Shown here piece after piece: positions 15,067 to 64,000 of a DNA stretch of 64,000 bases. The stretch comes from Sphingobacterium sp. PCS056. GTDB taxonomy: Bacteria > Bacteroidota > Bacteroidia > Sphingobacteriales > Sphingobacteriaceae. A program made the position numbers and the translations under genes. Position 1 is the first letter of the stretch. Each line of letters starts with the position of its first letter. The notes beneath the pieces were generated by a model. It had not been told where the DNA came from. It ran no database searches and was given only the letters and a program-made list of their open reading frames with translations. The stretch spans positions 1,550,001 through 1,614,000 of the forward strand of contig NZ_CP096883.1 in the NCBI RefSeq assembly GCF_023273895.1. The letters are read 5' to 3'.

Positions 15067-18000
15067 ATGAAAAAATTATTCTTTTTAGTACTCTTTGCTT
15101 GCTCAATAGGTTCAGTGCCTGCTCAATCGTTGAAAAAGCATGAAATGCCAAATACCTTAAATCCATTATTGCCCGGATATTTTGCAGACCCAACGATAAA
15201 AAAAATAGGAGATACCTATTATATCTATGCCACGACAGATGGTAACGGTTGGGGAGCAGGACCATCGCAGGTATGGACTTCCACAGATTTTAAGAATTGG
15301 ACCATACAACCCATGAACTGGCCCAATACCCATTGGTATTGGGCTCCCGATATGACTAAAGGATACGACGGAAGATATTATTTATATTATAGTCAACCGG
15401 TCGAAATATTTGGTGCGGTATCGGAGACACCGATAGGGCCTTGGCAGTCCCTGGCTGATGATCATCAATCGATTATACCCAATTATATGATTCCGGGTGT
15501 GATTACCTTGGATGGTCAAACGTTCACCGATCATGACGGACTCATGTATATGTATTGGGGCACCTGGGGGATTTATCCAGACCACGGGTGTGCCGTGGGG
15601 TTAATGAATCCGGATATGAAGAGTTTTAAAAAGATCGAATTGATTCCCAATACCGTGGCAAAGGATTTTTTTGAAGCTCCGTATATGTTTGAACGCAATG
15701 GTATATATTACCTCATGTATTCTTCTGGTCATTGTGAAGATCATACTTATCGTGTCCAATATGTCAAGAGTACAGTTGGCCCTATGGGACCCTTTGAATA
15801 TCCTGCTGATAACCCCATCTTAGTAACCAATGAAGATGGTACGATCCATGGACCGGGGCATCATAGTGTGCTGGAGGAGGATGGCCGGTATTATATCGTT
15901 TACCACAGGCACAATAATCCGCATTCGGGTGGTGGTTTTCATCGTCAGGTTGCAGTAGATGAATTATTTTTTACTGCTGACGGAAATATTCAAAAAGTAG
16001 TTCCCACACATCAAGGGATTGCTGATCTCATCAAACCGAAACCTTATCCCGAAGATCTAGCGTTCGGAAAACCTGTGCAGGTGTCTTCTTCTTATCATGC
16101 TGATTTTAGAGCGTCTTTTTTGGTGGATGACAATAACGGAACTTTATGGCGAGCAAAAGAAAACCATCAGCCAGCATGGTTAACGATCGATCTGGAAAAG
16201 ATAACAGATGTACAAACTGTCGCCATCCAATTTGAATATCCTACTTATGCGTATCAATATCGGATCGAAACATCAACAGATGCTAAAACCTGGACGACAT
16301 ATGATGACCAGTCCAATAATAATCGTTGGGCAAGTCCGGTCTTGGCCCACGGAAAGGTGAAGGCACGCTATGTACGCTTGCATCTCTTGCAGACACAATT
16401 GCCGGGGCTACCTCGTGGAGTATGGAATATCAAGGTCTATGGTAAGTCGCTGGACCAGCAAACGGTCTGGTCAGCTCCGCAAATTATGCCTCCTGAAGAA
16501 ACCATTTTTGGTCCTTTGATCCACATGGATGCGGAGGACTATCAGGAAGGGGAGCGTATCACAACGATTCAGAATAAAGGTTTACTGCAAGGAACCCTAG
16601 ATAGTGAAAAGCCTATTTATGTGAAAAACTATCAAGGGAAAAAAGCATTTTTCTTGAATGGTTCAGTTTCCCTTCGTTCGACATTTAAAGTGCCCCAATC
16701 ACTCGCGGGCAACAGCCCCTATACAGTCTCCATGTGGATCAATAATCCACGAATCGATCGTTTTGAAAGTGTGGTTGCTTGGTCTAAAGGTAATCAGGAT
16801 ATCAGCAAAGCGATCGTTGGCTACGGCAAAGATGCGCAGCGAGGAGCTATTACACATGGTGCCTGGCCAGATATGGGTTTTAAGACGCTACCGCAGGAGG
16901 ATCAATGGCATCATATAATAATCTCATTTGACGGTTATATGGAACGTATATATGTTGACGGAAAGCTGCAACGTGAAGAAAATCGCATGTTATTTGTTCA
17001 TCCTGCCGATTATTTTGTGGTAGGTGCTTCTGATTTATTGGATCAGCATTTTTCAGGTTATATCGCAGATATTAAGATGGCCAATATCGACTTATCTGCT
17101 GATATAATAAATGAAGAAAAGAATTTCTCCAATCCAAAAAAATTATTTTTTGCTATACAGACCGATAATCTTGCTACAGGAAAAATCAGCAAAGTGCGCA
17201 ATCATGGTGCGATCATGGCTCATGAGGTTGCGGTTGATCGAGGAGAGGTTATCATACAGGGTAACCGTACTGCACTGAAAATGGATACATGGAAAGATCC
17301 CATTTTGACCAGCATTCTTACTCAGCCGTCCTACACCTTAGCTTTTGATTGGTTTGATGGCCACCGTTGGAATCATGGTTTGGCACTGTATGATCAGGGC
17401 AAGACGGTGTTTTATAAGAACAGTAAGCAAGATCAGGTACAAAATATCAATAAATTACTTCGGATAAAGGATGGTGAAGTTGTTTTTCAGCACGCTTTTC
17501 ATTTTTTTCGTGCATATCCTAAAAAATTTAATATAGATCAGATAGAGGAAAATTATCAGATCTGGAAAGCAAAAAGTGCAGCTGATTTGAACAGGTATAC
17601 GCCTAATATCGCGGTGAAGCCGTATTGGATTAACGATGACGATTTCTTTGTCCAGATCCGTGCAGATCAAGCAGACCTGATGTATCTATTTTCGACAGAT
17701 CAATATGATTCGGGTTGGATTCAAGAGCCTTACTATTTGTTTAATCGTGCGCATTTGGGTAAGACCATTTCGGTTTTTGCGAAAGATGAGTTTGGAAATG
17801 TGAGTGAAGCACAGCTGATCGCTGTGCCGAAGCAGAAATCATCTTTACGGGTAAAGGATTTCGATCAAAACTTTACGTTAGGAGAGGAAGAAATTCCGGA
17901 TTGGGACGGCTATCAAGTCGGTGTATATCCCGATAGTACACATGTGGGGATTAAGGGTGTAGATGGGCAATGGACCTTGAGCTCTAAGCATACAAAATGG

Positions 18001-18465
18001 GGTGATGCATCCTTGTTACCACCTTTTATATATAAAGAATTGGAGGGGGATTTCACCTTAGAAGTTCAGGTAAAAGATGTCGCGGGATTAACTTCTAAAA
18101 CCCGCACCTCGAGTGAAGCTGGTATTATGATACAGGCTATAGGAAACCCAAATGCTTACATGAATAATACCGTGTTAACGGGTTGGAATTTGGGTAATCT
18201 TGCCAGAAGTATAGGGGATCAGATCCATCAGGAAGGAAATAATGGAACGGGATTGCAGTATTCACCTTATATCCAGGTACAAAAAGTGGGTAGTTATTTC
18301 TTCTTGCGCAGTTCTCAGGATGGAATCACATGGATCGATCTTCCGAATACACCCTTTCTGCGTGAAGATCTGAAAGGACAGAAGTTGCGTGTGGGGCTGT
18401 ATCAGATTGCGACCAATAATCAGGAAGGTTATGGTGTATTTGAGCAGTTCAAGATATGGCAATAA
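15067..18465 (+). CDS. Multidomain GH43-family glycosidase with F5/8-type and LamG domains
   Basis: An 1132-residue exported enzyme (signal peptide to PAQS). The N-terminal five-bladed propeller (about 30-330) has the GH43 catalytic triad: base D41 in YFADPT, pKa modulator D149 in LDGQTF, and acid E203 in FFEAPYMF. Next come an F5/8-type C (discoidin, CBM32-like) domain (about 335-475), a LamG-like domain (about 490-680), a beta-rich region, and a C-terminal jelly-roll resembling DUF1349 (about 930-1130). GH43 members are alpha-L-arabinofuranosidases, arabinanases, xylosidases or galactanases. Next to a GH127-type enzyme, an exo-alpha-arabinofuranosidase or arabinogalactan-trimming role is plausible. 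The many sugar-binding-type modules suggest action on polymeric plant material. Confidence 0.88.
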   Translation: MKKLFFLVLFACSIGSVPAQSLKKHEMPNTLNPLLPGYFADPTIKKIGDTYYIYATTDGNGWGAGPSQVWTSTDFKNWTIQPMNWPNTHWYWAPDMTKGYDGRYYLYYSQPVEIFGAVSETPIGPWQSLADDHQSIIPNYMIPGVITLDGQTFTDHDGLMYMYWGTWGIYPDHGCAVGLMNPDMKSFKKIELIPNTVAKDFFEAPYMFERNGIYYLMYSSGHCEDHTYRVQYVKSTVGPMGPFEYPADNPILVTNEDGTIHGPGHHSVLEEDGRYYIVYHRHNNPHSGGGFHRQVAVDELFFTADGNIQKVVPTHQGIADLIKPKPYPEDLAFGKPVQVSSSYHADFRASFLVDDNNGTLWRAKENHQPAWLTIDLEKITDVQTVAIQFEYPTYAYQYRIETSTDAKTWTTYDDQSNNNRWASPVLAHGKVKARYVRLHLLQTQLPGLPRGVWNIKVYGKSLDQQTVWSAPQIMPPEETIFGPLIHMDAEDYQEGERITTIQNKGLLQGTLDSEKPIYVKNYQGKKAFFLNGSVSLRSTFKVPQSLAGNSPYTVSMWINNPRIDRFESVVAWSKGNQDISKAIVGYGKDAQRGAITHGAWPDMGFKTLPQEDQWHHIIISFDGYMERIYVDGKLQREENRMLFVHPADYFVVGASDLLDQHFSGYIADIKMANIDLSADIINEEKNFSNPKKLFFAIQTDNLATGKISKVRNHGAIMAHEVAVDRGEVIIQGNRTALKMDTWKDPILTSILTQPSYTLAFDWFDGHRWNHGLALYDQGKTVFYKNSKQDQVQNINKLLRIKDGEVVFQHAFHFFRAYPKKFNIDQIEENYQIWKAKSAADLNRYTPNIAVKPYWINDDDFFVQIRADQADLMYLFSTDQYDSGWIQEPYYLFNRAHLGKTISVFAKDEFGNVSEAQLIAVPKQKSSLRVKDFDQNFTLGEEEIPDWDGYQVGVYPDSTHVGIKGVDGQWTLSSKHTKWGDASLLPPFIYKELEGDFTLEVQVKDVAGLTSKTRTSSEAGIMIQAIGNPNAYMNNTVLTGWNLGNLARSIGDQIHQEGNNGTGLQYSPYIQVQKVGSYFFLRSSQDGITWIDLPNTPFLREDLKGQKLRVGLYQIATNNQEGYGVFEQFKIWQ

Positions 18466-18490
18466 TCCGGTGATATCAACGGAAAATATA

Positions 18491-18533
18491 AACCGTGATC
18501 GTCTAATCTTCGGAAGGCGATCACGGTTTTATC
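18491..18533 (+). terminator. Strong rho-independent-type terminator after GH43
   Basis: A perfect 11-bp stem (AACCGTGATCG at 18491-18501, CGATCACGGTT at 18518-18528) is followed by TTATCTTT. It separates the enzyme operon (1435-18465) from the susC transcription unit. Confidence 0.75.
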
Positions 18534-49607: not shown

Positions 49608-50714
49608 ATGTTATTGACCGTTTTCACTTTACTGGTGTTATGCTTAGATACCATTTATATATTTGTAGATCTGAAAAAGGAAAATAGAGCATTTCGTCGG
49701 CATCTAAAAATAATACTATTTTTAGGTATAGTACAATTGGTATTTGTATTTATGTCAAGTATGCTTTATTCACATCGGTTTTATCTGATCTTGTCCTTTC
49801 CATTTGGTTTACTTTATGGACCGTCACTCTTATTAGCGATAAAACACAGGGGATTAACAAAATCAAGTCTTAATTTTTGGAAACACTGTATCCCATTTTT
49901 TTGTTTTTGTTTTGCTTTTATTTTGCTGATATTCAATAATTCTCTACGGTATCAGTATCATCTTGAGTATGTGGTTTTTTTACATTTTTTTACGATTGTC
50001 CAGATGATAGGTTATAGTATCTGGGTGTGGACTCTAGTTTCATCGACTTTAATCGGATTATCAAAACAAGGCGGACGAAAGTTATTTTGTTCTGTTTTAT
50101 TTTGTGTGATGTCGGGTTTATCCATGCGATCATTAATGGAAATGATCGAAAATGGAGCCAATATTAATCTCCATAGTGAAGTAACGATTCTTTTATATCT
50201 CATTTTTCTTTTTTTTATTACATTTTTATTGGTCATCTGTAGTCAAGATAAAGGTTATGGTCCAACTCAAATGGAAGGTCATGTAAGTAAACAAAGTCGT
50301 ATTCTTTCCATTCCAACTCCTTCAAAAAAAAGAACTGTCAGGAGAAAATCAACCGCATTGACAAGAGAACAGCAAATTGCCTATAGGTCTAGTATTGAGT
50401 TTTTTATAGAGACATTGGCATTCCTTGATAGTGATATGAATAAAGAAAAGTTTTGTAATGTCGTGGAAATACCTAGTGCGCATGTCGCTTCTTTTTTAAA
50501 GCAGGAATTTAATAAGGGTTTTAATGGATTTATTAATCAGTTGCGCTTGAATTATGCTGCTAGACAGTTGAAATCGGATCACTTTATATATACAATAGAA
50601 GATCTTTCATTGATATGTGGTTTTAGCTCAAGAGCATCGTTTTATCGAAATTTTCAAACGGAGTTTGGATGTTCTCCACATCAATTCAGATTTGAAAAAA
50701 AGCAGGTGATTTAA
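49608..50714 (+). CDS. Membrane-anchored AraC-family regulator
   Basis: 368 residues. The first 210 residues carry six or seven hydrophobic helices (for example IILFLGIVQLVFVFMSSML, HCIPFFCFCFAFILLIFN). After a basic linker (SKKRTVRRKS) comes an AraC DNA-binding domain (about 260-365) with FNKGFNGFINQLRLNYAARQ and the second helix-turn-helix pattern ICGFSSRASFYRNFQTEFGC. This 7TM-like-AraC form is common in Bacteroidota and would sense a membrane or periplasmic signal. It precedes the putative exopolysaccharide operon by 572 bp and may regulate it. Confidence 0.85.
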   Translation: MLLTVFTLLVLCLDTIYIFVDLKKENRAFRRHLKIILFLGIVQLVFVFMSSMLYSHRFYLILSFPFGLLYGPSLLLAIKHRGLTKSSLNFWKHCIPFFCFCFAFILLIFNNSLRYQYHLEYVVFLHFFTIVQMIGYSIWVWTLVSSTLIGLSKQGGRKLFCSVLFCVMSGLSMRSLMEMIENGANINLHSEVTILLYLIFLFFITFLLVICSQDKGYGPTQMEGHVSKQSRILSIPTPSKKRTVRRKSTALTREQQIAYRSSIEFFIETLAFLDSDMNKEKFCNVVEIPSAHVASFLKQEFNKGFNGFINQLRLNYAARQLKSDHFIYTIEDLSLICGFSSRASFYRNFQTEFGCSPHQFRFEKKQVI

Positions 50715-51286
50715 ATCGTTTTTTGAACGGTATGTATCATGCTCTCTGAAAAATTTTTATAAATATTTTTGCTGTTGAATTGATTATTAGAAAAATCTAA
50801 AATTATCCTCCACTGCAGGTGTACCTCTTCATGATGTCAATATCGGAATCTTAATGATCTGTTTTTGATCCACGCTTTATAGTGATTTTTGAAGAAGATC
50901 ATGGTGATCTAATCGAAGGCACTCTCTTGATGCTTGATCTTGTTTTATGCTATTTTTTTAATGTATAAGATAATCTCGTTGTCTTATTTTAGAGATACAC
51001 TTGTAGTTTATAATTTCAAAAACATTTTCGTTTAATGGTAAAACGTCATTTGATTAATGTTGTGATCGATCTTATTTTATTTGTTAAGTGGTTGATTTTG
51101 AGTGTTTTTTTTATTTTTTTTATAATTTGAGATAGTCAAAATAACCTTGTCAGCTTAAATTGAGACATATAAAATCGAAACTAAATATAAACTTTGTCGT
51201 AGAGCGCTTCAGGTAAATTTGGCTAACTGCTGAGAGAATCGGATGTGTGATATAACATAAATTTCACCAACTATAAAGATCATTTT
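50715..51286. other. Long AT-rich leader region before the exopolysaccharide-like operon
   Basis: 572 bases, no gene. Very T/A-rich around 51,100-51,130. No clear hairpin or repeat. Its length and place suggest it holds the operon promoter and possibly a long 5' leader. Confidence 0.5.
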
Positions 51287-52453
51287 ATGTACTACGATTA
51301 TTATCTATATTATTTGAGTTATTTAAACTCCCTGTATAATGGTTATCCTTTGATTGTCAGAATGACCGTATTTATGGTCATGGGCCTGACTTTGATAATC
51401 GTTTCTGGTATGCTTCGATTGTTTTATGTGGGGTTAATGATCCATCTGAAATCAAAACGTGTGGCAAAAACGGAAATACATTTTGAGGATAAGCTCCTAT
51501 TTGTCATGAAAAATAAAGCGAATTATGATGTTGAAGAGATCCAGCAGCTTTTGGAATATGATGCCGCTAACACAAAACGGTGGAAACCTGAAATTGTAAC
51601 TGATGTCGTTTTGTCGGCCAAGAATCAGCTATTGCAAAGGGGTGAACTTAATGAAATCAATTATAAAAACTGTTTGTTAGCGCTCAATCTGATGGGATTT
51701 TGGGAAAAACGAATTCGTACTTCAGGGGTTGAGAAACGAAGAGCTGCTTTGCAGATTGTGGGCGATATGGATAATGGGGTGAATAGTGGTATTCTTTCGA
51801 AATCAACTTTTCATAAGAATCGTTATATCCGTAAAACAGCGCGTGATTTATATACCAGTCAAGACACGTATCATCCTTTTCGATTTATGGAAGAGAATTT
51901 TGATGATGAATTTACACAGCTGGATAAGCTAAGATTGCATGCTACACTGATCAAAAGGTCCAATGAAGGAAAACTACCCAACCTCATGCGCTGGGTGAAT
52001 AGCTCGAGAAATCCAAATTATATCATTTTTATATTGAAGGAAATAGGATATTTCAAACAATATGAAGTCGCTGAGACTTTGATGACATTTCTTGAGAAAC
52101 ATGAAAATCGAGAAGTTAGGGCGCAAGCGGTGCTGACTTTAGGAGAACTGAATGATCATGCTTGTGCGTTGGATTTAATTGCAAGATACGCGTTGGAATC
52201 TACTGTGGTCAGGATCGCGATCATTAAAACGATGGGTAAATTAAAAAGTAAGGTGACACTGTCATTTCTTGTTGATGCTTATCGAGCAACAGAGGACGCT
52301 AATACGAAGCTTCTAATAGCGCGTGCTATTAAAAATCATGATCAAGAAGGAGATCTTGTACTCAGACAGCTGCAAGGAGAATTGCATGGAAATGAAAAGG
52401 AGCATGTTCTATTCAATCAGGTCTTGGCCGAGAAAACACTTGTTTCACTCTAA
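51287..52453 (+). CDS. Membrane-anchored HEAT-repeat protein
   Basis: 388 residues. A Tyr-rich N-terminus is followed by one strong membrane helix (about 24-55, MTVFMVMGLTLIIVSGMLRL). The rest is helical, with HEAT-like repeats most visible at about 230-370 (REVRAQAVLTLGELNDHACA, VVRIAIIKTMGKLKSKVTLS). HEAT scaffolds bind proteins, so this could organise the synthase complex at the inner membrane. First gene of a tight operon, 12 bases before the glycosyltransferase. No counterpart exists in the textbook Pga, Bcs or Pel systems. Confidence 0.8.
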   Translation: MYYDYYLYYLSYLNSLYNGYPLIVRMTVFMVMGLTLIIVSGMLRLFYVGLMIHLKSKRVAKTEIHFEDKLLFVMKNKANYDVEEIQQLLEYDAANTKRWKPEIVTDVVLSAKNQLLQRGELNEINYKNCLLALNLMGFWEKRIRTSGVEKRRAALQIVGDMDNGVNSGILSKSTFHKNRYIRKTARDLYTSQDTYHPFRFMEENFDDEFTQLDKLRLHATLIKRSNEGKLPNLMRWVNSSRNPNYIIFILKEIGYFKQYEVAETLMTFLEKHENREVRAQAVLTLGELNDHACALDLIARYALESTVVRIAIIKTMGKLKSKVTLSFLVDAYRATEDANTKLLIARAIKNHDQEGDLVLRQLQGELHGNEKEHVLFNQVLAEKTLVSL

Positions 52454-52465
52454 ATCTTAATAGAA

Positions 52466-53902
52466 ATGGTTTATTTTTTTACTTATATCATCTATTTTTA
52501 TGCTACTGCCCTTGCTCTTCTCTACATCTTATTGATGTTTATGAGCTATTATAAAACGAGAAGGTATCGGTATCAATATTCGGCAAGAGAGGAAAATTAT
52601 CTGAAAAAATTTCCAGATGAAGCTCCTGGAATTTCAATCGTTGCCCCAGCATTTAATGAGGAGGTGATTATATATGATAGTGTTAACTCCCTTTTGAATC
52701 TTGATTATCCGAAATTTGAGGTTATCATCGTAAACGATGGTAGCAAGGATAAAACCTTAGATATTTTGATTCAAGAATTTGATTTAGAAGAAGTCCCTTA
52801 TTATTATGTTTACAAAGTTTACTGTAAGCCTGTTTACCGTGTCTTGCGCTCTACGAATCCGGCTTTCAGTAAGTTGATCGTAGTGGATAAACAAAATGGG
52901 GGTACTAAAGCCGATGCCATGAATGCGGGTGTAAATATGGCCCAATATGATTATTTTATCAATACTGATGTAGATTGCATCCTTGCGGAAGATACGCTGT
53001 CAAAGATAATACTTCCGGTATTGGACTCAGATAAACAGGTGATTGCGGTGGGAGCGACTATGCGTATGGTCAATAGCTGTACAATAGAACGAGGTCGTAT
53101 AACCCGTGTAAAACCTCCGAATAGATTAATTCCTCTGTTTCAGGAAACGGAATACCTCCGGTCTTATCTGGTAGCAAAAATGGGCTGGTCTATGATCAAT
53201 GCAGTACCAAATGTCTCGGGAGGATTTGGACTTTTTGATACTCAAGTAGTAGTTTCTACCGGCGGATTTGACTCTGCTTCCCATGCCGAAGATATGGACA
53301 TGACCGCTAGAATGGTCGCATTTATGCGGGAAAATAAGCGTGCTTATCGTATTGCGCAATGTCCTTATAGTCTTTGCTGGACAGAAGGGCCACCAAATAT
53401 AAAAGTATTAAGTAGGCAGCGTACCCGCTGGGGGCGTGGTATGCTGCAATTTATCATCGACCACCGTAAATTTTTTCTGAATAAGGATTATGGAAGGTTA
53501 GGATTTTTGGTGATGCCTTACATTGTTTTCTTTGAATTTCTTGCTCCAATAATTGAATTTTTCGGCTTCTTGTTTTTGCTGTTTTTGCTCCTGACAGATC
53601 AGGTAAATTATGATACTTTTTGGATGATGCTACTCTACGTTTACTTGCTTGGATTAGCGGTATCAATCATCACCATATCGTATGATCTCATTTTGGAAAA
53701 ATTATATAAAAACTTTTCCGAGTATTTAAAGTTGGTGTTTTTTGCGGCTTTTGAGGCAATTTTTTATCATCCATTGATCGTTATCTTCACATTAAGGGGA
53801 TATATTCAATATTTAACTCGGAGAAACTTTAAATGGGGGCAAATGACAAGACAGGGCTTTTCTCCATCCAATAACGCTAATACTGTAAAAAATAATGCTT
53901 AA
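52466..53902 (+). CDS. Processive family-2 glycosyltransferase (membrane polysaccharide synthase)
   Basis: 478 residues. One N-terminal membrane helix, a GT-A domain (about 55-310) and three to four C-terminal helices (about 340-440). Motifs: ISIVAPAFNEE at the first strand, VNDGS, the metal-binding DVD in FINTDVDC, the ED base in SHAEDMDMTA, and the processivity motif QRTRWGRG (the QxxRW of cellulose, chitin and PNAG synthases). It should polymerise a nucleotide-sugar at the inner membrane and push the chain into the periplasm. Its stop overlaps the next gene by 8 bases, indicating coupled translation with the outer-membrane partner. Confidence 0.9.
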   Translation: MVYFFTYIIYFYATALALLYILLMFMSYYKTRRYRYQYSAREENYLKKFPDEAPGISIVAPAFNEEVIIYDSVNSLLNLDYPKFEVIIVNDGSKDKTLDILIQEFDLEEVPYYYVYKVYCKPVYRVLRSTNPAFSKLIVVDKQNGGTKADAMNAGVNMAQYDYFINTDVDCILAEDTLSKIILPVLDSDKQVIAVGATMRMVNSCTIERGRITRVKPPNRLIPLFQETEYLRSYLVAKMGWSMINAVPNVSGGFGLFDTQVVVSTGGFDSASHAEDMDMTARMVAFMRENKRAYRIAQCPYSLCWTEGPPNIKVLSRQRTRWGRGMLQFIIDHRKFFLNKDYGRLGFLVMPYIVFFEFLAPIIEFFGFLFLLFLLLTDQVNYDTFWMMLLYVYLLGLAVSIITISYDLILEKLYKNFSEYLKLVFFAAFEAIFYHPLIVIFTLRGYIQYLTRRNFKWGQMTRQGFSPSNNANTVKNNA

Positions 53903-56714
53903 AAGATTTAAATATTTTAGACTACTGATCGTTCTCTTTGGATCTCTATATGTCAGTCAGCCGATCTATGCTCAGCGTGCAGGTACCACAATAGACCGAA
54001 ATGAGGAGGCTTACCAGATCAATGAGCTTTACAAACAAGGAAAGTGGGAGGAAGGTAAGAAACGCGCTGATGAAACTTTAAAAAAGAATCCAAAGGATGG
54101 GGATATGAGAATGCTTGTAGGTAAATACCATCTTCACCATCAGCAATATGAACACGCGCGATATGAATTGGCTAAGTCCTTAATGTATGCTCCTGCTAAT
54201 GTGGATGCCAAGCATATGTTGATCGCGGTAGAGACGAAAACAAAGCGGTATTCAAGCGCAATCTGCTATATCAATGAACTGTTAGAAATCAATCCTTACT
54301 GGAAAGGGTTATGGCGTAAAAAGATCGATCTATACCGAAAAATGGGTAATCATGTTGAGGCAGACCGATTGCTAAAACGCATCGCACAGATTTATCCGGA
54401 AGATAAAGAACTAAAAAAAGATCAAATCTATATCGTGGACCAGCGCATTGCTGAGGTGAAAAAATCTGGAAAAATTGATGAGACAATTCAAATATCTAAA
54501 CAACTAATTGATGATCAACCTCGCCAAACGGAAACTTATTTGTCACTGGTCGATCATTATATTAAAGCGGGTGATTATAACAATGCATTGGTTTATGCTG
54601 AAAGAGGATTAAACCAGTTTGCTGGAAATACAAATTTTGTGCAAAAGAAAATTGCCATATTGGATCATCAGCAACGATATTCAGAGCTTCTGAGTTTTTT
54701 GGATATGGAAATGAAAAATGGCAGGGCCAGCAATTTGCGCTCCCAGTATAACTATTTTTTATTGGAGGCTGCGCGAAATGCGAAAAATAATGATCCCTTA
54801 AATTTATATGGAAAGATATTCATGGGTTCTCCCGGAAATCGGGAAGCATTTGACTATGTGTTTAATGAATTGCTTGCGAAAGAACAATATGAGGAAGCTC
54901 TGGCGACTTTAATAAAGCATAGAAGAAGTGTAGGAGCAAGAAAGGATCTGGACATGAAAGAACTCGCTGTTTACCAAAAAATGAATGCGTCGGGTAAAGT
55001 GGCCGCATTAACTCGCGAATACATGGTAAAGTATCCGGGTGACTCTGACCTGAAAGAATCTTATGTCAAGATGATGCTCCAGCAGGCAAAAGCCAATATG
55101 TTGGATGGAAAAATTTCGTTGGCGATCTCTGATTGGCAGCAAATCTTGCTTTATGGTGATAGGGAAGCGATAGAAATAGCACAACAAGGTCTCTATAATG
55201 CCTTTGTGACAGAGAAAAACTATCCGGATGCGCTTACTATTTTGGATGAGATGTTGCTCAATAGTCCAAAAGAAGTGAATCTTATGATAAAAAAAGCGGA
55301 CTTATATAATAAACAGGAGCGTTATGAGGATGCACTTACTCTATACGAAGAAATCATGGAGACGTCTCAACAGGTAGAAAGGGAGCGACTTATTGGCGGG
55401 TATGGTGAAATGATTGCACCATGGATCAAGAAATTTAAAGAGAGCTACAACCTGACGATAGCTAGGAGTTTAACTGAAAGATGGCTTTCTTTGGATGAGA
55501 GTAATCAGGATGCCTTAATGTATGGGATCAATCTTGCTGACCAACTAAAGGACTATCATGCCATGTTTAGCTATGCAGAAAAAGGTGTTAAATATCATGA
55601 ATCGGATCTGACTTTTACCATTAAATTGGCTGAGGCGATGAACCACATGGCAGATAAATTGGGGGATTCTTGGAACTTATTGCACCGTCAAGTCCAACTG
55701 AATCCTTTTCATGAACCGTTAGTCAATACGTTTATACATACAACTGAACAATATGCTGGAAGGTTATTGAAAACGAAAGATCATCATAGGGCCTTACTCA
55801 CCATTGATACGGGACTCCATTATAATGAGAATTATAAAATGTTGAAATATATGAAAGGATTGGCGTATGAGGGACTTAGACAGTATGACTCTGCATATCA
55901 TTATCAACAATTTTATGAACCTTCGCTTTTGGAATTTAAAGATTTCAAAAGCCATCTAAATTATATTGGGCAAAAATCGCTTCGAAACTATATTGGAATT
56001 TCACATTTAAGAGCGAGATTTGGAGATGACTATGTGATATCATCGATCTCAACAGCGGAATATACGAGATTGGCTCGCTCAGGAGCTGCTTATACCGGTA
56101 GAATTAACTATGCTGGTAGAGATGAAGGTAAGGGAATTCAAGGTCAAGTAGAATGGTCTAATCCTTGGACTGATAAACTGTCAACTCGAATAGATCTCGC
56201 ACTTTCAAATAAATTCTTTGCAAAAATAGCGCTTAATGCAGCAGCCCTATACGAATGGAAGCCGACTTGGGAAGGAGAGTTAGGAGTAGGCTATAGACGA
56301 TTCTTTTCCGATCAGAATTTACTTAATCTGAATGTTGGAATCACCAAAGAAATTGATGATTTCCGATTGGGAGCAAAATTAAGTAATTTTTTTCTTGACA
56401 GTGAAGGGGAACGTTTTTACCTCTACAGTGTTGTTGCCAGAGCACAATATCTAATGAATAATCCAAGAAATTATATATTAGTTCTTGGAAGCATTGGCAA
56501 TTCACCTGATATCGACTTAGTCAATAATCAATTGTATAATAGTTTCAATGTGTTGAATGCGATGGTTGGTGCCGGAATAGGGAGATCGATAACCAAAAAT
56601 GTGGGAGCAAGTGTGATCGGAACTTGGTATAATTTCCAAACCGACCGATCAGTCATCGCTACCTCGTACCGAAATTTGTATAACCTATATGTTCAGCTTC
56701 ATGTTTCATTCTAA
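53895..56714 (+). CDS. TPR-rich protein with C-terminal YaiO-like outer-membrane beta-barrel
   Basis: 939 residues. Signal peptide (to PIYAQ), then a long series of TPR-type helical repeats (about 35-690; for example GDYNNALVYAERGLNQFAGN, EQYEEALATLIKHRRSVGAR), then a beta-barrel domain (about 700-939) of the YaiO kind that ends in the BAM-type aromatic terminus LYVQLHVSF. The TPR-plus-barrel plan equals that of PgaA, BcsC and PelB/AlgK-AlgE exporters, which guide a polymer through the periplasm and outer membrane. It overlaps both neighbours (8 and 26 bases). In E. coli yaiO is also beside a GT2 gene (yaiP). Its export role is inferred. Confidence 0.85.
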   Translation: MLKRFKYFRLLIVLFGSLYVSQPIYAQRAGTTIDRNEEAYQINELYKQGKWEEGKKRADETLKKNPKDGDMRMLVGKYHLHHQQYEHARYELAKSLMYAPANVDAKHMLIAVETKTKRYSSAICYINELLEINPYWKGLWRKKIDLYRKMGNHVEADRLLKRIAQIYPEDKELKKDQIYIVDQRIAEVKKSGKIDETIQISKQLIDDQPRQTETYLSLVDHYIKAGDYNNALVYAERGLNQFAGNTNFVQKKIAILDHQQRYSELLSFLDMEMKNGRASNLRSQYNYFLLEAARNAKNNDPLNLYGKIFMGSPGNREAFDYVFNELLAKEQYEEALATLIKHRRSVGARKDLDMKELAVYQKMNASGKVAALTREYMVKYPGDSDLKESYVKMMLQQAKANMLDGKISLAISDWQQILLYGDREAIEIAQQGLYNAFVTEKNYPDALTILDEMLLNSPKEVNLMIKKADLYNKQERYEDALTLYEEIMETSQQVERERLIGGYGEMIAPWIKKFKESYNLTIARSLTERWLSLDESNQDALMYGINLADQLKDYHAMFSYAEKGVKYHESDLTFTIKLAEAMNHMADKLGDSWNLLHRQVQLNPFHEPLVNTFIHTTEQYAGRLLKTKDHHRALLTIDTGLHYNENYKMLKYMKGLAYEGLRQYDSAYHYQQFYEPSLLEFKDFKSHLNYIGQKSLRNYIGISHLRARFGDDYVISSISTAEYTRLARSGAAYTGRINYAGRDEGKGIQGQVEWSNPWTDKLSTRIDLALSNKFFAKIALNAAALYEWKPTWEGELGVGYRRFFSDQNLLNLNVGITKEIDDFRLGAKLSNFFLDSEGERFYLYSVVARAQYLMNNPRNYILVLGSIGNSPDIDLVNNQLYNSFNVLNAMVGAGIGRSITKNVGASVIGTWYNFQTDRSVIATSYRNLYNLYVQLHVSF

Positions 56715-58827
56715 GATCATCATACTGTTTTTGTTTTTTCACCTTTTTAATAGCTGTGAGAGCAAGGGTTTTGATTTTTCTTCGACACAATTGCTGATCG
56801 CTTCTAATGGGGATAAGGAGAGTTCCGAAGCCGCAGATTATTTTCATCAGCACCTTATGAAGCGAAATGTATCTAATAATGGGTTATGGATTGAACGATC
56901 TGATGTACAACGTAAGCCTGCATCGGGAACTATCATTTATTTTGAAGTGGTACCAGATTTAGGAAGTGATTATGAAATTATTAATGAGGAGAGAAAGTTA
57001 TCGTTGTTTGCGCAAGATCGATCAACACTTAGATGGCTGTCTTATCTTCTAATGGATAAATTGGGTAATGAACATCCTATAAATGTGGCTGATCTACCTC
57101 CCAACTACCTTGATTTTAAAAGTGGGAAGGTTCATTTTGATATGAAATATCGTGAACCACATCTTCGACCGAACCTAGAAGTTGATTATGCAGGAATTAT
57201 ACTTACGCATAGTATCGAAAAAGATTGGGGATTGTGGGGACATCACTTGGAACGTGTGTTTTTGGAAGGTGTGCCAGAAGAATCTCATGCAGAAGTGCAC
57301 GGGAAAAGAACGCAAGATCAGTTTTGTTTCACTTCGGATCAAACTTTTAAAGCTATTTGCAATTTTATCATCGATGGATATGGACGTGGTGAAGAAGAAT
57401 CGAAATGGTTTATGATAAATCCCAATGACAATGATCTGGTCTGCACCTGTGCTACGTGTCGTACGCAGGGAAATGCAGATGGAAACGCTACAGGAGCGAT
57501 AGCTTATCTATTAAACAAACTTGCGGCTGAATATCCAAGGCATTATTTTTTTACGACTGCTTATAAGACTTCTCGAAAGGCTCCAATGAAAAAACTGGCT
57601 ACCAATGCAGGTGTATTTGTGAGTACAATTGACCTCCCTAAAAACCCAATGTTGAATAAGAATCAACAGAAGGTCATAGGTTTTACACGTACAGTTAAAG
57701 AGTGGAAGGATAAAACGGATCATGTCTATGTATGGGATTATATTTCAAATTTTGACGATTATATCACGCCTGCCCCTGTTCTGCAACGTGTGAAGAAACA
57801 CATCAATTATTTTTCAGAAATGGGTGTGGACGGAATTTTTTTTAATGGAAGTGGCTATGATTATGCGCCTTTTGATGATATGAAGACGTATGTTCTTAGT
57901 GCATTAATGATTGATAATACGCTGGATATACATAAACTGATGGAAGATTATTATAAAAAATTTTATCCCGTCACTGGTCGCCTGATATCATCTTATTTAT
58001 TGGAGATGGAAGATGTGGCACTACAGAAGAATACTGCTTCTGATGTGTATGTCCCTTTTCGGTCGGCAATTGCAACTTATTTTGATGCGAAAAAGTTTGA
58101 GGATTTTTATTCGAAACTTATTAAATCTAAACCTCAGCTGTCTGGGCAAGAAGACGTGAAAATAGATCAACTATTGACAGCTTTGAGTTTTACGCAACTG
58201 CAGATTATATATGATCAAGGTTTTTTGAAAAGTGGAGTGAGGAATCGAGCGAATAGTAATAGTCTTGTAATGGAACAAGATCTATTGAGCATATTGGCAA
58301 AATATAATAACTATGCAGGGTTATCCAAATATAAAGAGGAGAATGGAAGTTTTGAAACTTACTTATCTGAATGGAAAGCGCTGATAAAAGCTGATTTAAA
58401 AACAAATCATTTTATCAATCTAGAGGCAACGGGATTGATGTCTGGAGAAATTTATGCGGATACTAGGTTATTGACTGACAACTTGCCTGGATTTACGAGT
58501 GATTTTAATCAAGGTTGGTTTTTAGCAGGTGAAGATATTCAGATAGCAGGTTTAACACATTTGAAAGCTGGAAAATCAGAACGGATTTCCATACGCTTTT
58601 TGATCAATGATAAACATCGAATGGCTATTCCTGATCGGGTTGAAATATTTGCAAACGAAAAAAAGATATTGACCTGTAGAGGTGAAGATTTCAGTGTGGG
58701 AACAACTACAGCACTGTTGGATAAAAAATTGATCATGCCGGAAAATGCCGCGGTAAAGGTGAGGATTTATAGTAATAAAGTAATAAAAAAATCAGTAATA
58801 GCTTGCGATGAAATACAATTATACTAA
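56689..58827 (+). CDS. DUF4838-like lipoprotein, possible polysaccharide-active enzyme
   Basis: 712 residues, lipoprotein (lipobox FNSC, C23). The N-terminal region (about 30-140) resembles the alpha/beta domain that precedes catalytic barrels in GH20/GH84/GH67-like enzymes. The middle (about 150-450) resembles DUF4838: a CxCxxC cluster (C252, C254, C257 in LVCTCATC) followed by HYFFTTAYKTSRKAP and VYVWDYISNFDDY, a TIM-barrel-like layout. The C-terminal part is helical, then beta-rich. In this operon it takes the place of a periplasmic glycosidase or deacetylase such as PgaB or PelA, trimming or modifying the polymer. The catalytic residues are not identified. Confidence 0.7.
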   Translation: MFSFMFHSKIIILFLFFHLFNSCESKGFDFSSTQLLIASNGDKESSEAADYFHQHLMKRNVSNNGLWIERSDVQRKPASGTIIYFEVVPDLGSDYEIINEERKLSLFAQDRSTLRWLSYLLMDKLGNEHPINVADLPPNYLDFKSGKVHFDMKYREPHLRPNLEVDYAGIILTHSIEKDWGLWGHHLERVFLEGVPEESHAEVHGKRTQDQFCFTSDQTFKAICNFIIDGYGRGEEESKWFMINPNDNDLVCTCATCRTQGNADGNATGAIAYLLNKLAAEYPRHYFFTTAYKTSRKAPMKKLATNAGVFVSTIDLPKNPMLNKNQQKVIGFTRTVKEWKDKTDHVYVWDYISNFDDYITPAPVLQRVKKHINYFSEMGVDGIFFNGSGYDYAPFDDMKTYVLSALMIDNTLDIHKLMEDYYKKFYPVTGRLISSYLLEMEDVALQKNTASDVYVPFRSAIATYFDAKKFEDFYSKLIKSKPQLSGQEDVKIDQLLTALSFTQLQIIYDQGFLKSGVRNRANSNSLVMEQDLLSILAKYNNYAGLSKYKEENGSFETYLSEWKALIKADLKTNHFINLEATGLMSGEIYADTRLLTDNLPGFTSDFNQGWFLAGEDIQIAGLTHLKAGKSERISIRFLINDKHRMAIPDRVEIFANEKKILTCRGEDFSVGTTTALLDKKLIMPENAAVKVRIYSNKVIKKSVIACDEIQLY

Positions 58828-59356
58828 TTACATATTTTTAGCAGGAATAATTTTCCTGTTCGGTTCGTGTTTAGATATTGCCAATAGGAAGACAACTATG
58901 GAAATTCAAGATAATCATAGACATTATTTTCCTGTATTGGCGGGACAGGAAAAGGATCTATCTTTTAAATTGAAAAATACGGGTCTTAATCCACTTATGA
59001 TTACGGATATTATCACTTCATGTGGATGTCTTAAATTGGGGGATGGGGTCGGTACATTCTCGGTTCCGCCAGGAAAAGAAAGAATACTGACCTTGAGCTA
59101 CAATAGTTCCAAAAATGTCGGATATGTCAAACATTATATAGCGCTTTACGGAAACTTTGAAAAATCGCCCTATCAGGAGATCGTATTTGATATTCATGTA
59201 GTACCAAATGCTCTTTATACGCAAGACTATGAAGAACTGTATGCTGATGAAATAAAACGACAGGGGGACTTAAAAGTTCTCGTTGATGGAGCTGAAAACA
59301 ATAAAGGATATTATATGGATCAAGATTTAAATAAAAACATCGAGTCCGATAAGTAA
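58808..59356 (+). CDS. DUF1573-type lipoprotein
   Basis: 182 residues, lipobox FGSC. Residues about 35-135 are a DUF1573 Ig-like domain with its hallmark ITDIITSCGCLKLG preceded by LKNTGLNPLM and followed by VPPGKERILTLSYNSS. The C-terminal 40 residues are charged and probably flexible. DUF1573 proteins are periplasmic or surface beta-sandwiches of unknown role. It overlaps the preceding gene by 20 bases, so it is the last gene of the five-gene operon and presumably an accessory of the complex. Confidence 0.85.
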   Translation: MKYNYTNYIFLAGIIFLFGSCLDIANRKTTMEIQDNHRHYFPVLAGQEKDLSFKLKNTGLNPLMITDIITSCGCLKLGDGVGTFSVPPGKERILTLSYNSSKNVGYVKHYIALYGNFEKSPYQEIVFDIHVVPNALYTQDYEELYADEIKRQGDLKVLVDGAENNKGYYMDQDLNKNIESDK

Positions 59357-59500: not shown

Positions 59501-59920
59501 ATGATGGATTCGGTATCTTATGACCCAAAAGAACTGTTAATTACGTTGATGGAGATGAAAGAAAAACTTAAATCTACCATTGCAAAACATTGCCCAGATC
59601 ATGATATGTCCATATGTGATGATTTGGACAAAGCATTGGAAGATTTTTTTCAGCTTCAGCATGTAGGAAATAATGAAATAGGGTATTTATCGTCACAATT
59701 GGCACTTCTACATTTATTTAGGGAAGTTGAGAGGACGATGGAAGTTGTGGTCAATACCAATAACCTAAGGGCATACTATGATTTTAAACTAGCGATTGAA
59801 GGGGAAAATCGAAAAGCTCCTACTCTGATTCGTCATTGGAAATCGAGCGATTTAATCCTTGCGGCTGTTTTAGGAGGTCTATTGGCAGCAGCTCTTTCAT
59901 TATTTTTTGTGCTTCCATAA
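59501..59920 (+). CDS. Tail-anchored hypothetical protein
   Basis: 139 residues: a helical, acidic cytoplasmic part (about 1-110) and one C-terminal membrane helix (LILAAVLGGLLAAALSLFFV). No signal peptide or known motif; YLSSQLALLHLFREVERTME suggests a coiled-coil or helical bundle. It lies 144 bp after the DUF1573 gene and before a TPR-AraC regulator. Function unknown; it could be an adaptor at the inner membrane. Confidence 0.65.
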   Translation: MMDSVSYDPKELLITLMEMKEKLKSTIAKHCPDHDMSICDDLDKALEDFFQLQHVGNNEIGYLSSQLALLHLFREVERTMEVVVNTNNLRAYYDFKLAIEGENRKAPTLIRHWKSSDLILAAVLGGLLAAALSLFFVLP

Positions 59921-60003: not shown

Positions 60004-61599
60004 ATGAAATCACTAAGTATTTTTATTTTTATGCTTTTTGTTTTGTGCAAGACGAGCGCTGCACAGAGCGGGAGCAATAGCAATTTTAATAAACGTTACC
60101 TTGACGTCGTAGTTTCACTTGTCGCCTCAGATAGGAAAGAAGCTCGTAGAATTGCTGATTCCTTGGCACATGTAGCCAATACTGATGAACAAAAGATCAA
60201 AGCTTATATGTTACTGGCCAAGTTGGATGAAAATGCGGGTAATATGAAAGGTTGTATATGGTATGCTATGCGAGCTGATACGATTGCAAATGCTACTTTC
60301 AACTTTTCATGGCAGGCTTCTACTGCAGGTTTTTTGGCCACATCTTTTCGACAGTTGGGTTTATTAAAAGTGTCTGAACGATATCTGTCTAAAGCAGAAA
60401 TCGCAAATGAAAATCAATTGGACGCGCATATGAAAATGCTCACGAAGATTAATATTTTGCATGAACGTGCATTTCATTGTTTTGAACTAGATCACTATAC
60501 GGATGCAAAAAAATATCTGAATTCGGCAGCCTCGCTAATCCATATAGATGGTAACGAGGATAAGAAAGCGCTACTGATAAAAGCTACTAATGATCAATTG
60601 ATGGGGATATGTGAATTGAAACTAGGAAATTTAATCAGCGCCGAATCATATCTAGATGCTTCTCTCGAAAAGATAAAAAATGTGGAAAGTAATTTGAAGC
60701 CCTACATCATCCGTGCAAAAGCGGAATTAGAGCTGGAAAGAAATAATCTGACTGCAGCTTTTAAGTATCTAAATATGATAAAACCATATCTGATAAATGG
60801 CGATGTGGAAGAATTGAAGATGTTGACTTATGAATCTTTGGCAGCATATTATCAGAAGGATGGTGATATGACAAAATTTTTAGAATTCCGTGAGAAAGCT
60901 ATTGATCTTAAGGCTCATAGAGATGAGGTGGCTAAAGGTATATCGGATGATCTCATTGAAATATTTAATGTAAGGAAGCAATATTATAAAAATAGATATA
61001 TGCTGTCAATCGGTGTTGTGCTTATGATCGGAATGTTTGCAGCGGTTGGTACATTATATTACTTTCGACTGCAATCTTCTTATAAGAGTCAATATCATGT
61101 TCTTACTGATAAACAAGAAGGGGTGACCCCGGTTGTTGCCCCTTTAACTGAAATAAGTGATAATTTTTCAATGGTTATCAATGAGTTGGAAAATAGTAGC
61201 GCGATTAAAGCTAAGGGAATTAATATTGCAAAAGATACTGAGGAAAGACTATACCAGGAGTTTGTTAAACAGGAGGAGGCGAATTTCTATTTAGAAAAAA
61301 GTGTGACCTTACAGCAACTGGCTACGAATATGGGAACAAACATGCGTTATGCTAGCTATATTCTTCAAAAATTTAGAGGTAAGGACTTCTATGACTATAT
61401 CCAGTCGAGCCGGATTGAATTTATCATCGCAAAATTAAAAACTTCACCGGAACTTTTCGACTATAAAATTTCATATTTGGCTGAAATGAGCGGATTCTCT
61501 TCATTGAGTAGATTTTCTAGCGCTTTTAAAGAAGTTACAGGAATTCCTCCGTCGGCATTTATTCATTTTATGAAAAAAGAAATGAATCAAAAAAGATAA
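60004..61599 (+). CDS. TPR-transmembrane-AraC regulator
   Basis: 531 residues. Signal peptide (to TSAAQ), a periplasmic helical TPR-like sensor (about 25-330), one membrane helix (MLSIGVVLMIGMFAAVGTLY, about 336-357) and a cytoplasmic AraC DNA-binding domain (about 420-528) with MSGFSSLSRFSSAFKEVTGI. This is a one-component transmembrane regulator typical of Bacteroidota, able to pass a periplasmic signal to DNA. Its place right behind the exopolysaccharide-like operon suggests it senses its assembly or product, but this is a guess. Confidence 0.85.
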   Translation: MKSLSIFIFMLFVLCKTSAAQSGSNSNFNKRYLDVVVSLVASDRKEARRIADSLAHVANTDEQKIKAYMLLAKLDENAGNMKGCIWYAMRADTIANATFNFSWQASTAGFLATSFRQLGLLKVSERYLSKAEIANENQLDAHMKMLTKINILHERAFHCFELDHYTDAKKYLNSAASLIHIDGNEDKKALLIKATNDQLMGICELKLGNLISAESYLDASLEKIKNVESNLKPYIIRAKAELELERNNLTAAFKYLNMIKPYLINGDVEELKMLTYESLAAYYQKDGDMTKFLEFREKAIDLKAHRDEVAKGISDDLIEIFNVRKQYYKNRYMLSIGVVLMIGMFAAVGTLYYFRLQSSYKSQYHVLTDKQEGVTPVVAPLTEISDNFSMVINELENSSAIKAKGINIAKDTEERLYQEFVKQEEANFYLEKSVTLQQLATNMGTNMRYASYILQKFRGKDFYDYIQSSRIEFIIAKLKTSPELFDYKISYLAEMSGFSSLSRFSSAFKEVTGIPPSAFIHFMKKEMNQKR

Positions 61600-62014: not shown

Positions 62015-63274
62015 ATGAAGAAATTCAACGCAATGATTATTGGCTTGTTAATCTGGATGTGTCTGATCTTAGTCCTGTCTTCCTGTACCAAAAAGCCTGT
62101 TGATACTACTGAAATTGCTCCTATTGAAGAGCTCCCAATATTAGATGAAAGTGTCAGAGCTTTGGTACCCCATATTTTTATCAATATTGATGATAAACAA
62201 GAAGTGATGGATAAAGATGTGTATCTGAGTGCTGAAATATATATTGAGGGAAATGATAAATTTAAGAATGTTGACAAGATAAAAACAAGAATTAAAGGGC
62301 GGGGAAATTCGACATGGAGTAAGCCTAAGAAGCCATTTCGATTGAAGTTGGATAAAAAAGCATCACTTTTAAATTTGCCAGATGCAAAAGATTGGGTTCT
62401 ATTAGCTAATTATAATGACTATACCTTAATGACAAACGCCGTTGCAATGAAAATTGGGAAGCAATTGGGTATGCCTTATACTCACGATATTGTATCTGTG
62501 GATTTGACTATAAATGGTGTATATCGAGGAAATTATAATTTGACACAACAAGTTGAAATTCATGAGAATAGAGTAAATGTTGGTGATGATGGTATTTTGT
62601 GGGAGCTTGACAGTTACTTTGATGAAGAATGGAAGTTTAAGACAAAATATTTTGATTTGCCTGTTATGTTGAAAGATCCAGATCCTGAATCTGGATTTCA
62701 ATTTGAAACATGGAAGTTGGATTTTCAAAATTTTGAAAAATTGTTGTATGCTAAAGAATTTCCTAAGAATTCTTATGGTAATATATTTGATAAGCAGCAG
62801 TTTGTCAATTTTCTCATTGTAAATATGTTGGTGGCAAACCATGAGGTTTGTCATCCTAAAAGTGTTTATATGCATAAAAGATCGGGCGGGAAATATACAA
62901 TGGGGCCCATCTGGGATTTTGATTTTGGCTTCGGCTTTAGTGAAGAACATCATCGAACTTACTTCAACAATGTCACACTGGATTTGATTAGAGAGAATGA
63001 TGACAGAATTGGAGCAGAATTGTACAAGAAAATTCTTAAAGATCCTGAAGTAAGAGTCTTGTTAAATAAAACTTGGCAGGCCTATAAAAGTAATAAGTTT
63101 AACGAGCTGATGCAATTTGTTGAAATCTTCGCTGCAGAAATACGTGATTCTCAAAAGCGAGATTTTGAAAAATGGAAAATTGGGAACAATAATTTGGGAG
63201 CAAATAAGGCTAGCATGAAAATATTTCTTCGAAGTCGTGCGCAAGTGATAGATCGATTTATTTCAAAATTATAG
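62015..63274 (+). CDS. CotH-like kinase-family lipoprotein
   Basis: 419 residues, lipobox LSSC (C24). The CotH family signatures are present: KTRIKGRGNSTWSKPKKPFR near residue 90, DWVLLANYNDYTLMTNAVA, and GPIWDFDFGFGF in the C-terminal half, where the DFDFG acidic residues would bind metal as in CotH and other atypical kinases. The Bacillus CotH protein phosphorylates spore-coat proteins. Bacteroidota lipoprotein versions are common near surface polysaccharide genes and uncharacterised. Substrate unknown. It is monocistronic, with long gaps on both sides. Confidence 0.85.
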   Translation: MKKFNAMIIGLLIWMCLILVLSSCTKKPVDTTEIAPIEELPILDESVRALVPHIFINIDDKQEVMDKDVYLSAEIYIEGNDKFKNVDKIKTRIKGRGNSTWSKPKKPFRLKLDKKASLLNLPDAKDWVLLANYNDYTLMTNAVAMKIGKQLGMPYTHDIVSVDLTINGVYRGNYNLTQQVEIHENRVNVGDDGILWELDSYFDEEWKFKTKYFDLPVMLKDPDPESGFQFETWKLDFQNFEKLLYAKEFPKNSYGNIFDKQQFVNFLIVNMLVANHEVCHPKSVYMHKRSGGKYTMGPIWDFDFGFGFSEEHHRTYFNNVTLDLIRENDDRIGAELYKKILKDPEVRVLLNKTWQAYKSNKFNELMQFVEIFAAEIRDSQKRDFEKWKIGNNNLGANKASMKIFLRSRAQVIDRFISKL

Positions 63275-63577: not shown

Positions 63578-64000
63578 TTAGGTGGTAAGAAACTTTTCCT
63601 TGTATGATTTTTCAAAATAGTTACCTAATGAGCGTGTTCTTTCGGTGTCTACGCTATTAATATAGCGATGAAACATTTGCTCTGTACTGTGTCCCGTAGC
63701 CTCCATTAAAAGTGGAGTGGGGATCTTACCGTAGAAATTTGAAGCAAAGCTTCTGCGTCCGATATGGCTTGTAATCGCTTCCCATTTTTGTACCATCATC
63801 TCGTATGCTCTGAATCCACAGCGCTTATGTACTTTTACTAAACTTTTTATACCTGCTAAACGTACAACTTCTTTAATCTGATCGTTATATTTCTGAATGG
63901 GTAATCGAGCTGGAAATGAATCACTATTTTTTGACATAATTACCAAAGCTGCAGGGTGAAGCGGTAATAGGATATCCTTTTGCGTCTTTTGTTGAACAAA
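63578..64000 (-). CDS. Tyrosine recombinase/phage integrase, C-terminal part (runs off the edge)
   Basis: The last 140 codons of an integrase whose start lies beyond the right edge; the frame is open to base 64000 with no stop. Visible residues include the conserved strand KTQKDILLPLHPAAL, the HxxR motif SHIGRRSFASN, the GHS box and the nucleophile Tyr in FHRYI. The first catalytic arginine is outside the window. It differs in sequence from the IntDOT-like enzyme at 26986. Pointing left, it may lie at the end of another mobile element to the right, or be a stand-alone recombinase. Confidence 0.85.
   Translation of the reverse strand, partial: FVQQKTQKDILLPLHPAALVIMSKNSDSFPARLPIQKYNDQIKEVVRLAGIKSLVKVHKRCGFRAYEMMVQKWEAITSHIGRRSFASNFYGKIPTPLLMEATGHSTEQMFHRYINSVDTERTRSLGNYFEKSYKEKFLTT

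Follow-up and report, generated by a model that had tools for sequence, protein, structure and literature searches.

A conserved HEAT-GT2-TPR/YaiO-DUF4838-DUF1573 gene cassette of Bacteroidota, probably for synthase-dependent polysaccharide secretion

The window analyzed was a 64,000-nucleotide stretch of the Sphingobacterium sp. PCS056 genome (contig NZ_CP096883.1, positions 1,550,001 to 1,614,000), a genome that consists of a single contig of 5.2 Mb. A cassette of five open reading frames (ORFs), all on the + strand, occupies positions 51287-59356 of the window, and encodes a HEAT-repeat protein, a family 2 glycosyltransferase (GT2), a tetratricopeptide-repeat (TPR) protein with a YaiO-type barrel, and two lipoproteins of the DUF4838 and DUF1573 families. 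The cassette had been singled out from the letters of the window as a putative new exopolysaccharide system (the original prediction), and its five ORFs, their common strand and their spacings (+12, -8, -26 and -20 bases, 5' to 3') were confirmed as annotated. The features of the cassette, in window coordinates, were:

51287..52453, + strand: HEAT-repeat protein, 388 aa; N-terminal transmembrane (TM) segment at ~22-40, then HEAT repeats, predicted cytoplasmic
52466..53902, + strand: GT2, processive-type polysaccharide synthase, 478 aa; D91, DVD168-170, ED275-276, QRTRW318-322, C-terminal TM segments
53895..56714, + strand: TPR/YaiO outer-membrane protein, 939 aa; signal peptide, ~36 helices (~18 TPRs), C-terminal barrel; putative periplasmic conduit and exporter
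55986..56711, + strand: YaiO-type beta-barrel domain of the same protein, residues 698-938, 14 predicted strands (PF19413, TIGR04390, AlphaFold2)
56701..58827 (ORF opens at 56689), + strand: DUF4838 lipoprotein, ~708 aa; predicted glycosidase-like polymer-processing enzyme
58808..59356, + strand: DUF1573 Ig-like lipoprotein, 182 aa; lipobox C21, C72-x-C74 and D140-Y141-E142, all invariant

Domains were assigned with Pfam and NCBIfam, and the NCBIfam equivalog cut-offs were used for PgaC, PgaA and CelA. Pfam matches were obtained for every ORF: HEAT_2 (1.6e-13), Glycos_transf_2 (4e-22), YaiO (PF19413, 4.8e-18) plus TPRs, DUF4838 (1.1e-42) and DUF1573 (9e-14). For the DUF4838 ORF, a start at 56701 is likelier than the annotated 56689, as the Met5 column was invariant in the alignment and was also the start codon in most orthologs; the overlap with the TPR/YaiO ORF would then be 14 bases and not 26.

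Public genomes were scanned with a GT2 profile, and the best 80 loci were kept for a survey of gene order. The order HEAT-GT2-TPR/YaiO-DUF4838-DUF1573 was found in 70 of the 80, across Sphingobacteriales, Flavobacteriales and Bacteroidales, with median gene spacings of -14 to +16 bases and median identities to the window proteins of 26-57%, depending on the protein. The other ten comprised four loci without DUF4838 only, one without DUF1573 only, two scored as lacking HEAT, two with HEAT-GT2 only, and one whose GT2 frame the automatic call had failed to pick up. A synteny survey had been proposed with the original prediction, which had staked itself on a gene order conserved beyond this strain; the recurrence across three orders bears this out and rules out a chance or one-strain arrangement. 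Within genus and family, the order persisted to ~24-30% identity for most of the proteins; the nearest named GT2 relative among the scanned genomes was that of Sphingobacterium faecium (94% identity). Pairwise distances of the five proteins were correlated (r 0.84-0.92, 56 complete sets), which, with shared ancestry uncorrected, shows co-inheritance and not contact.

The genes on either side mostly had nothing in common from one lineage to the next (lepA, yidC, lpd and others), consistent with a self-contained cassette. Conserved flanking genes were considered as further members of the system and ruled out, as they were mostly housekeeping genes that differed by lineage. Sphingobacterium, Pedobacter, Flavobacteriaceae and Bacteroidales rows were intermixed in the GT2 tree, a pattern that may reflect horizontal spread of the cassette. 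Two cassette loci were in metagenome-assembled genomes (MAGs) labelled Gastranaerophilales and Limnohabitans; the gene order of one of them is of the Flavobacterium columnare type, which makes mis-binning of the contigs likely.

The GT2 motifs D91, D168-V-D170, E275-D276 and Q318-R319-x-R321-W322 were invariant in 18 homologs, in agreement with the processive GT2 that had been predicted from its DVD, ED and QRTRW motifs. Together with five TM-like segments, they give the protein the sequence characters of an inner-membrane processive synthase. Its best NCBIfam match was PgaC_IcaA (123 bits, cut-off 422), and a GT2 profile from the 56 sets matched E. coli PgaC over most of its length (102 bits) and YaiP with 41 bits. 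Identity as a poly-N-acetylglucosamine or cellulose synthase was ruled out by the equivalog cut-offs. In Mesonia, Myroides and one Flavobacteriaceae MAG, galE lies 8-13 bases 3' of DUF1573, and a donor of the UDP-hexose type is thereby suggested for those three lineages.

The exporter expected from the original prediction, TPRs plus an outer-membrane barrel, was upheld by the Pfam matches, by TIGR04390 (36.5 bits, above the cut-off of 32) and by the strands of an AlphaFold2 model; the family models and predicted strands point to a periplasmic TPR domain and a putative outer-membrane barrel. The model contained ~36 helices (~18 TPRs) followed by 14 strands; the local confidence (pLDDT) of the barrel was mostly 80-90, and the global template modelling score (pTM) was 0.44, so the relative placement of the helical part and the barrel is not fixed by the model. 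A Foldseek search with it returned generic TPR proteins only. PelB and BcsC are each predicted to have 19 TPRs (PMC9384988), and the modelled TPR count of the exporter resembles theirs.

From these data, the cassette is probably a machine for synthase-dependent polysaccharide biosynthesis and export. The alternative of a short glycan, built by the GT2 on a lipid or on a protein of the surface, with the TPR/YaiO protein as an assembly scaffold and not a polymer channel, was weighed against this: the strongest solved-structure matches of the GT2 were confined to its N-terminal nucleotide-binding part, the predicted barrel has only 14 strands, and no product is known. However, QxxRW and a C-terminal TM bundle are found as in processive synthases, the PgaC match covers most of the GT2, the exporters BcsC, PelB and PgaA likewise combine a long TPR region with a barrel, and the cassette holds neither an acceptor-related gene nor a flippase. 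The short-glycan alternative was accordingly judged improbable.

The DUF4838 protein matched PF16126 with 146.8 bits (cut-off 26.6), and a lipobox-like Cys was present in 48 of 56 DUF4838 proteins. Its predicted architecture (pLDDT 89, pTM 0.87) was an alpha/beta domain, a TIM barrel, a helical region and a C-terminal beta-domain, and the Foldseek neighbors of the model were enzymes of glycoside hydrolase (GH) families GH138, GH20, GH115, GH67 and GH84. The likeness to a glycosidase-type TIM-barrel family noticed in the original prediction is thus reproduced by fold model and structure search. A search of the PDB with the single sequence gave no match; with the DUF4838 profile, the best sequence match was the beta-hexosaminidase BT0459 (E 0.008, weak), with coverage of the N-terminal domain as far as barrel strand 1 and of a portion of the C-terminal domain. 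R155, H185, Q211, D247, Y292, W349-D350-Y351 and C252/C254/C257 were invariant or nearly so across 66 cassette and 20 other DUF4838 proteins, and several conserved residues lay at the ends of barrel strands as positioned by the model. In the structure prediction proposed earlier for the active site, a TIM barrel with conserved polar residues at strand ends was obtained, and the Asp-Glu pair that GH20 enzymes carry at the end of barrel strand 4 was absent from the strand assigned in the model, so the protein may not hydrolyze.

Catalysis by DUF4838 is moderately favored, and the protein probably processes the polymer. A variant of the same explanation, in which DUF4838 is catalytically dead and acts as a periplasmic polymer-binding chaperone or scaffold, is the less probable of the two but has appreciable weight, since the residue after D247 in strand 4 is N or D in most proteins, a structural role is conceivable for the adjacent C-x-C-x-x-C motif, and four relatives do without the protein. 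It is opposed by the presence of R155, H185, Q211, D247, Y292 and D350 in nearly all 86 DUF4838 proteins, inside and outside cassettes, which suggests a shared active site, and by the precedent of inverting enzymes with the neighboring GH67/GH115 folds, which are not known to use the GH20 pair. The four DUF4838-less loci are Bacteroidales MAGs with HEAT-GT2-TPR/YaiO-DUF1573, and the next gene downstream in three of the four encodes a protein of 423-447 aa, which possibly replaces DUF4838 there (no Pfam match in the one that was scanned). In three relatives, a fusion of GH9 and polysaccharide deacetylase lies directly 3' of DUF1573 (one domain-scanned, the other two 71% identical to it), an arrangement that recalls how PgaB and PelA pair a deacetylase with a hydrolase.

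For DUF1573, a lipobox-like Cys was present in 56 of 56 proteins, and C72-x-C74 and D140-Y141-E142 were invariant. DUF1573 also matched the OS_HP2 (seleno)protein family weakly (33 of 100 bits); given this match and the invariant C-x-C, a redox or metal role is conceivable.

No match to GGDEF or PilZ was found in the whole genome, with the same searches positive in 8/14 (GGDEF) and 5/14 (PilZ) control genomes. The original prediction had seen no PilZ domain and had expected a different control; its observation now extends to the genome, its expectation gains support, and control of the cassette by cyclic di-GMP (c-di-GMP) is very unlikely. Another control is needed in such a genome, and we infer that the HEAT protein is the natural candidate, a step supported by the receiver linkage in sister loci described below. 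In nearly all loci, the gene immediately 5' of the GT2 is HEAT. The HEAT protein carries a single TM-like segment close to the N-terminus, and no catalytic signature was seen in it; of the five proteins it diverges fastest (mean pairwise identity 29%, 56 sets). In the loci of 8 relatives, HEAT is split over two ORFs, one for the TM part and one for the HEAT part; these overlap in some genera and lie apart in others, a pattern suggestive of gene fission or of partial duplication. A programmed frameshift was also considered for these split ORFs and rejected, as their junctions resemble those of overlapping or distinct genes and once that of a partial duplication; the frameshift signal itself was not analyzed.

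A wider HEAT-GT2 family was defined here by HEAT being the next gene upstream of a GT2 from this clade, as in the window cassette, and by profile search its GT2 was found in 94 of 395 sampled Bacteroidota genomes (~24% of species). Neighborhoods of 53 family GT2s outside a complete cassette were surveyed: HEAT was immediately upstream in 51/53, a single-domain response regulator just before HEAT in 31/53, YaiO nearby in 40/53 and DUF4838 in 13/53, the last count being inflated by nine GT2s that had entered via a DUF4838 match. Without those nine, HEAT was found in 43/44 and the receiver in 24/44. In some sister loci hybrid kinase, receiver, HEAT and GT2 genes are consecutive. The GT2 tree (a quick method with a distant outgroup, so that its support values and rooting call for caution) placed the cassette clade (47 rows, SH-aLRT 99) inside a DUF4838-rich clade (63 rows, 100), and this inside the receiver-HEAT family. 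One sister system was found in the same genome near contig position 3526277 (3518000-3536000), with a hybrid kinase, a receiver, HEAT, a GT2-PF00884 fusion (1140 aa) and a YaiO gene on the opposite strand; its GT2 is 40% identical to that of the cassette. The sulfatase-fold PF00884 domain of this paralog is preceded by several TM segments and carries a GRTF motif, and is possibly a phosphotransferase, not a true sulfatase.

By analogy with these loci, HEAT probably controls or assembles the synthase. It is more tentatively proposed that HEAT is the control subunit of a Bacteroidota-wide synthase family, switched by phosphorylated CheY-like receivers and not by c-di-GMP, and that the cassette is a horizontally spread branch from which the receiver was lost and in which glycosidase-fold and DUF1573 lipoproteins are present. 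About as plausible, though still short of an even chance, is a variant of the overall explanation in which HEAT is a mere assembly or stability partner of the GT2, without signalling, and the response regulators of sister loci act elsewhere. PgaD, a small obligate partner of PgaC, is a precedent for this; the cassette also has HEAT and no receiver gene, and in some lineages the TM part is encoded apart from the HEAT part, each by its own ORF. The variant is harder to reconcile with a single-domain receiver that lacks an output domain of its own and stands directly before HEAT in 31 of the 53 sister loci, and with the rows of kinase, receiver, HEAT and GT2.

Beyond the five genes, the following features were noted around the cassette:

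49608..50714, + strand: AraC-type regulator, upstream; position kept in close Sphingobacterium relatives
51193..51221, + strand: Bacteroidota-type promoter-like site TTTG-N17-TAAATTTG, 65 bases 5' of the HEAT start
59501..59920, + strand: 139-aa protein with C-terminal TM segment, directly downstream; kept only in close Sphingobacterium relatives; accessory
60004..61599, + strand: TPR-AraC regulator, downstream; kept in most close Sphingobacterium relatives

The promoter-like motif had 5 matches in the window against 4.5 expected by chance, which is weak evidence, its position alone being suggestive. The upstream AraC-type regulator, which is outside the core, is a possible local regulator, and so is the downstream TPR-AraC regulator. 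A CotH-kinase gene lies 3' of the cassette at 62015-63274, and likewise in close Sphingobacterium genomes; in Alistipes montrealensis, a CotH-kinase gene (16962-18533 of its locus stretch) overlaps DUF1573 by 35 bases, and linkage in distant lineages may reflect a functional tie to the cassette. At 63578-64000 on the - strand, an ORF runs past the window end, and its C-terminus resembles a tyrosine recombinase (GHSTEQMFHRYI); an adjoining mobile element is possible.

In the mechanism proposed, the inner-membrane GT2 would polymerize a UDP-hexose-type sugar and push the chain through its own TM pore; the TPR superhelix would then guide it across the periplasm to the outer-membrane YaiO barrel. 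In the periplasm, the DUF4838 lipoprotein would trim or remodel the chain, in the slot held elsewhere by PgaB, PelA and BcsZ, and the DUF1573 Ig-like lipoprotein would probably help to assemble or hold the periplasmic complex. Membrane-anchored HEAT would dock on the cytoplasmic side of the GT2 and gate or assemble it, replacing c-di-GMP/PilZ control. In sister systems the CheY-like receiver is probably the input of HEAT; in the cassette, which lacks a receiver, the input is likely transcriptional, through the flanking AraC regulators. Several points weigh against this account: a polymer or phenotype is known for no cassette member; the barrel has 14 predicted strands vs. 16 in PgaA, and the pTM of the whole-chain model is low; DUF4838 has D247-N248 (D invariant, mostly N or D next) in place of the GH20 pair; four relatives retain the rest of the cassette without DUF4838, which is therefore not strictly essential; and with no response regulator in the cassette, the idea of control by HEAT is carried over from the sister loci. 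Bacteroidota abound in guts, in soils and in the sea, and the cassette offers a bounded gene set and a concrete model for the control of a polysaccharide synthase in a bacterium without c-di-GMP, with testable roles for three poorly characterized parts (GT2-adjacent HEAT, DUF4838 and DUF1573).

No published description of the five-gene set was found in the open-access literature, although one may exist elsewhere, and no description of the sister loci was found there either. HEAT, YaiO and Bacteroidetes are unmentioned in a survey of synthase-dependent operons (PMC7112194), and PMC10434189, considered as a description of the cassette, was ruled out as being on a different subject. Synthase-dependent systems in general comprise an inner-membrane polymerase, a periplasmic enzyme, an alpha/alpha-repeat domain and an outer-membrane barrel (PMC9384988). 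The plan of synthase, TPR-barrel exporter and periplasmic enzyme in the original prediction is supported and conserved across orders. Its view that HEAT, DUF4838-like and DUF1573 parts have no place in Pga, Bcs or Pel needs amending for DUF4838: PgaB and PelA each have glycoside hydrolase activity, paired with a deacetylase (PMC9384988), so such systems do accommodate a periplasmic protein of glycosidase type, a position that suits DUF4838. HEAT belongs to the larger Bacteroidota HEAT-GT2 family.

The Pga system (pgaABCD) shares with the cassette a PgaC-related GT2 (26% identity over 336 residues), a TPR-plus-barrel exporter and a periplasmic lipoprotein of glycosidase-type fold. It differs in that the cassette falls below the equivalog cut-offs (PgaC 123/422 bits, PgaA 32/366), has no PgaD match and no de-N-acetylase domain, adds HEAT and DUF1573, and lies in a genome without GGDEF/PilZ. 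Bcs has a GT2 with the same D, DxD, ED and QxxRW motifs and a comparable number of exporter TPRs, whereas the CelA match reached 32.8 of 699 bits, PilZ and a BcsB-type gene are absent from the cassette, and the barrel family differs. Pel likewise combines a long TPR protein and outer-membrane barrel with a partner enzyme of glycoside hydrolase activity (PMC9384988), but its synthase, partner proteins and gene order are different, and Pel-type proteins were absent from the family-search matches. The E. coli yaiS-yaiP-yaiX-yaiO locus has a GT2 (YaiP, 25% identity over 261 residues) and a YaiO-domain barrel; YaiO, at 257 aa, is too short for a long TPR region, YaiS and YaiX stand in place of DUF4838 and DUF1573, and HEAT is absent. 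The earlier statement that this locus shows only the yaiP-yaiO pair was wrong, as the K-12 locus also contains the putative deacetylase yaiS and the IS2-broken putative acyltransferase yaiX. The sister loci (response regulator-HEAT-GT2-(sulfatase-fold)-YaiO) share HEAT directly 5' of a GT2 of the same family, with YaiO nearby; unlike the cassette, they have a response regulator and often a hybrid kinase, in many a fused or adjacent PF00884 protein, usually a short TPR region, and no DUF1573. Set beside these systems, the cassette is best read as an undescribed form of synthase-dependent polysaccharide secretion, mobile and independent of c-di-GMP, and not as a new category.

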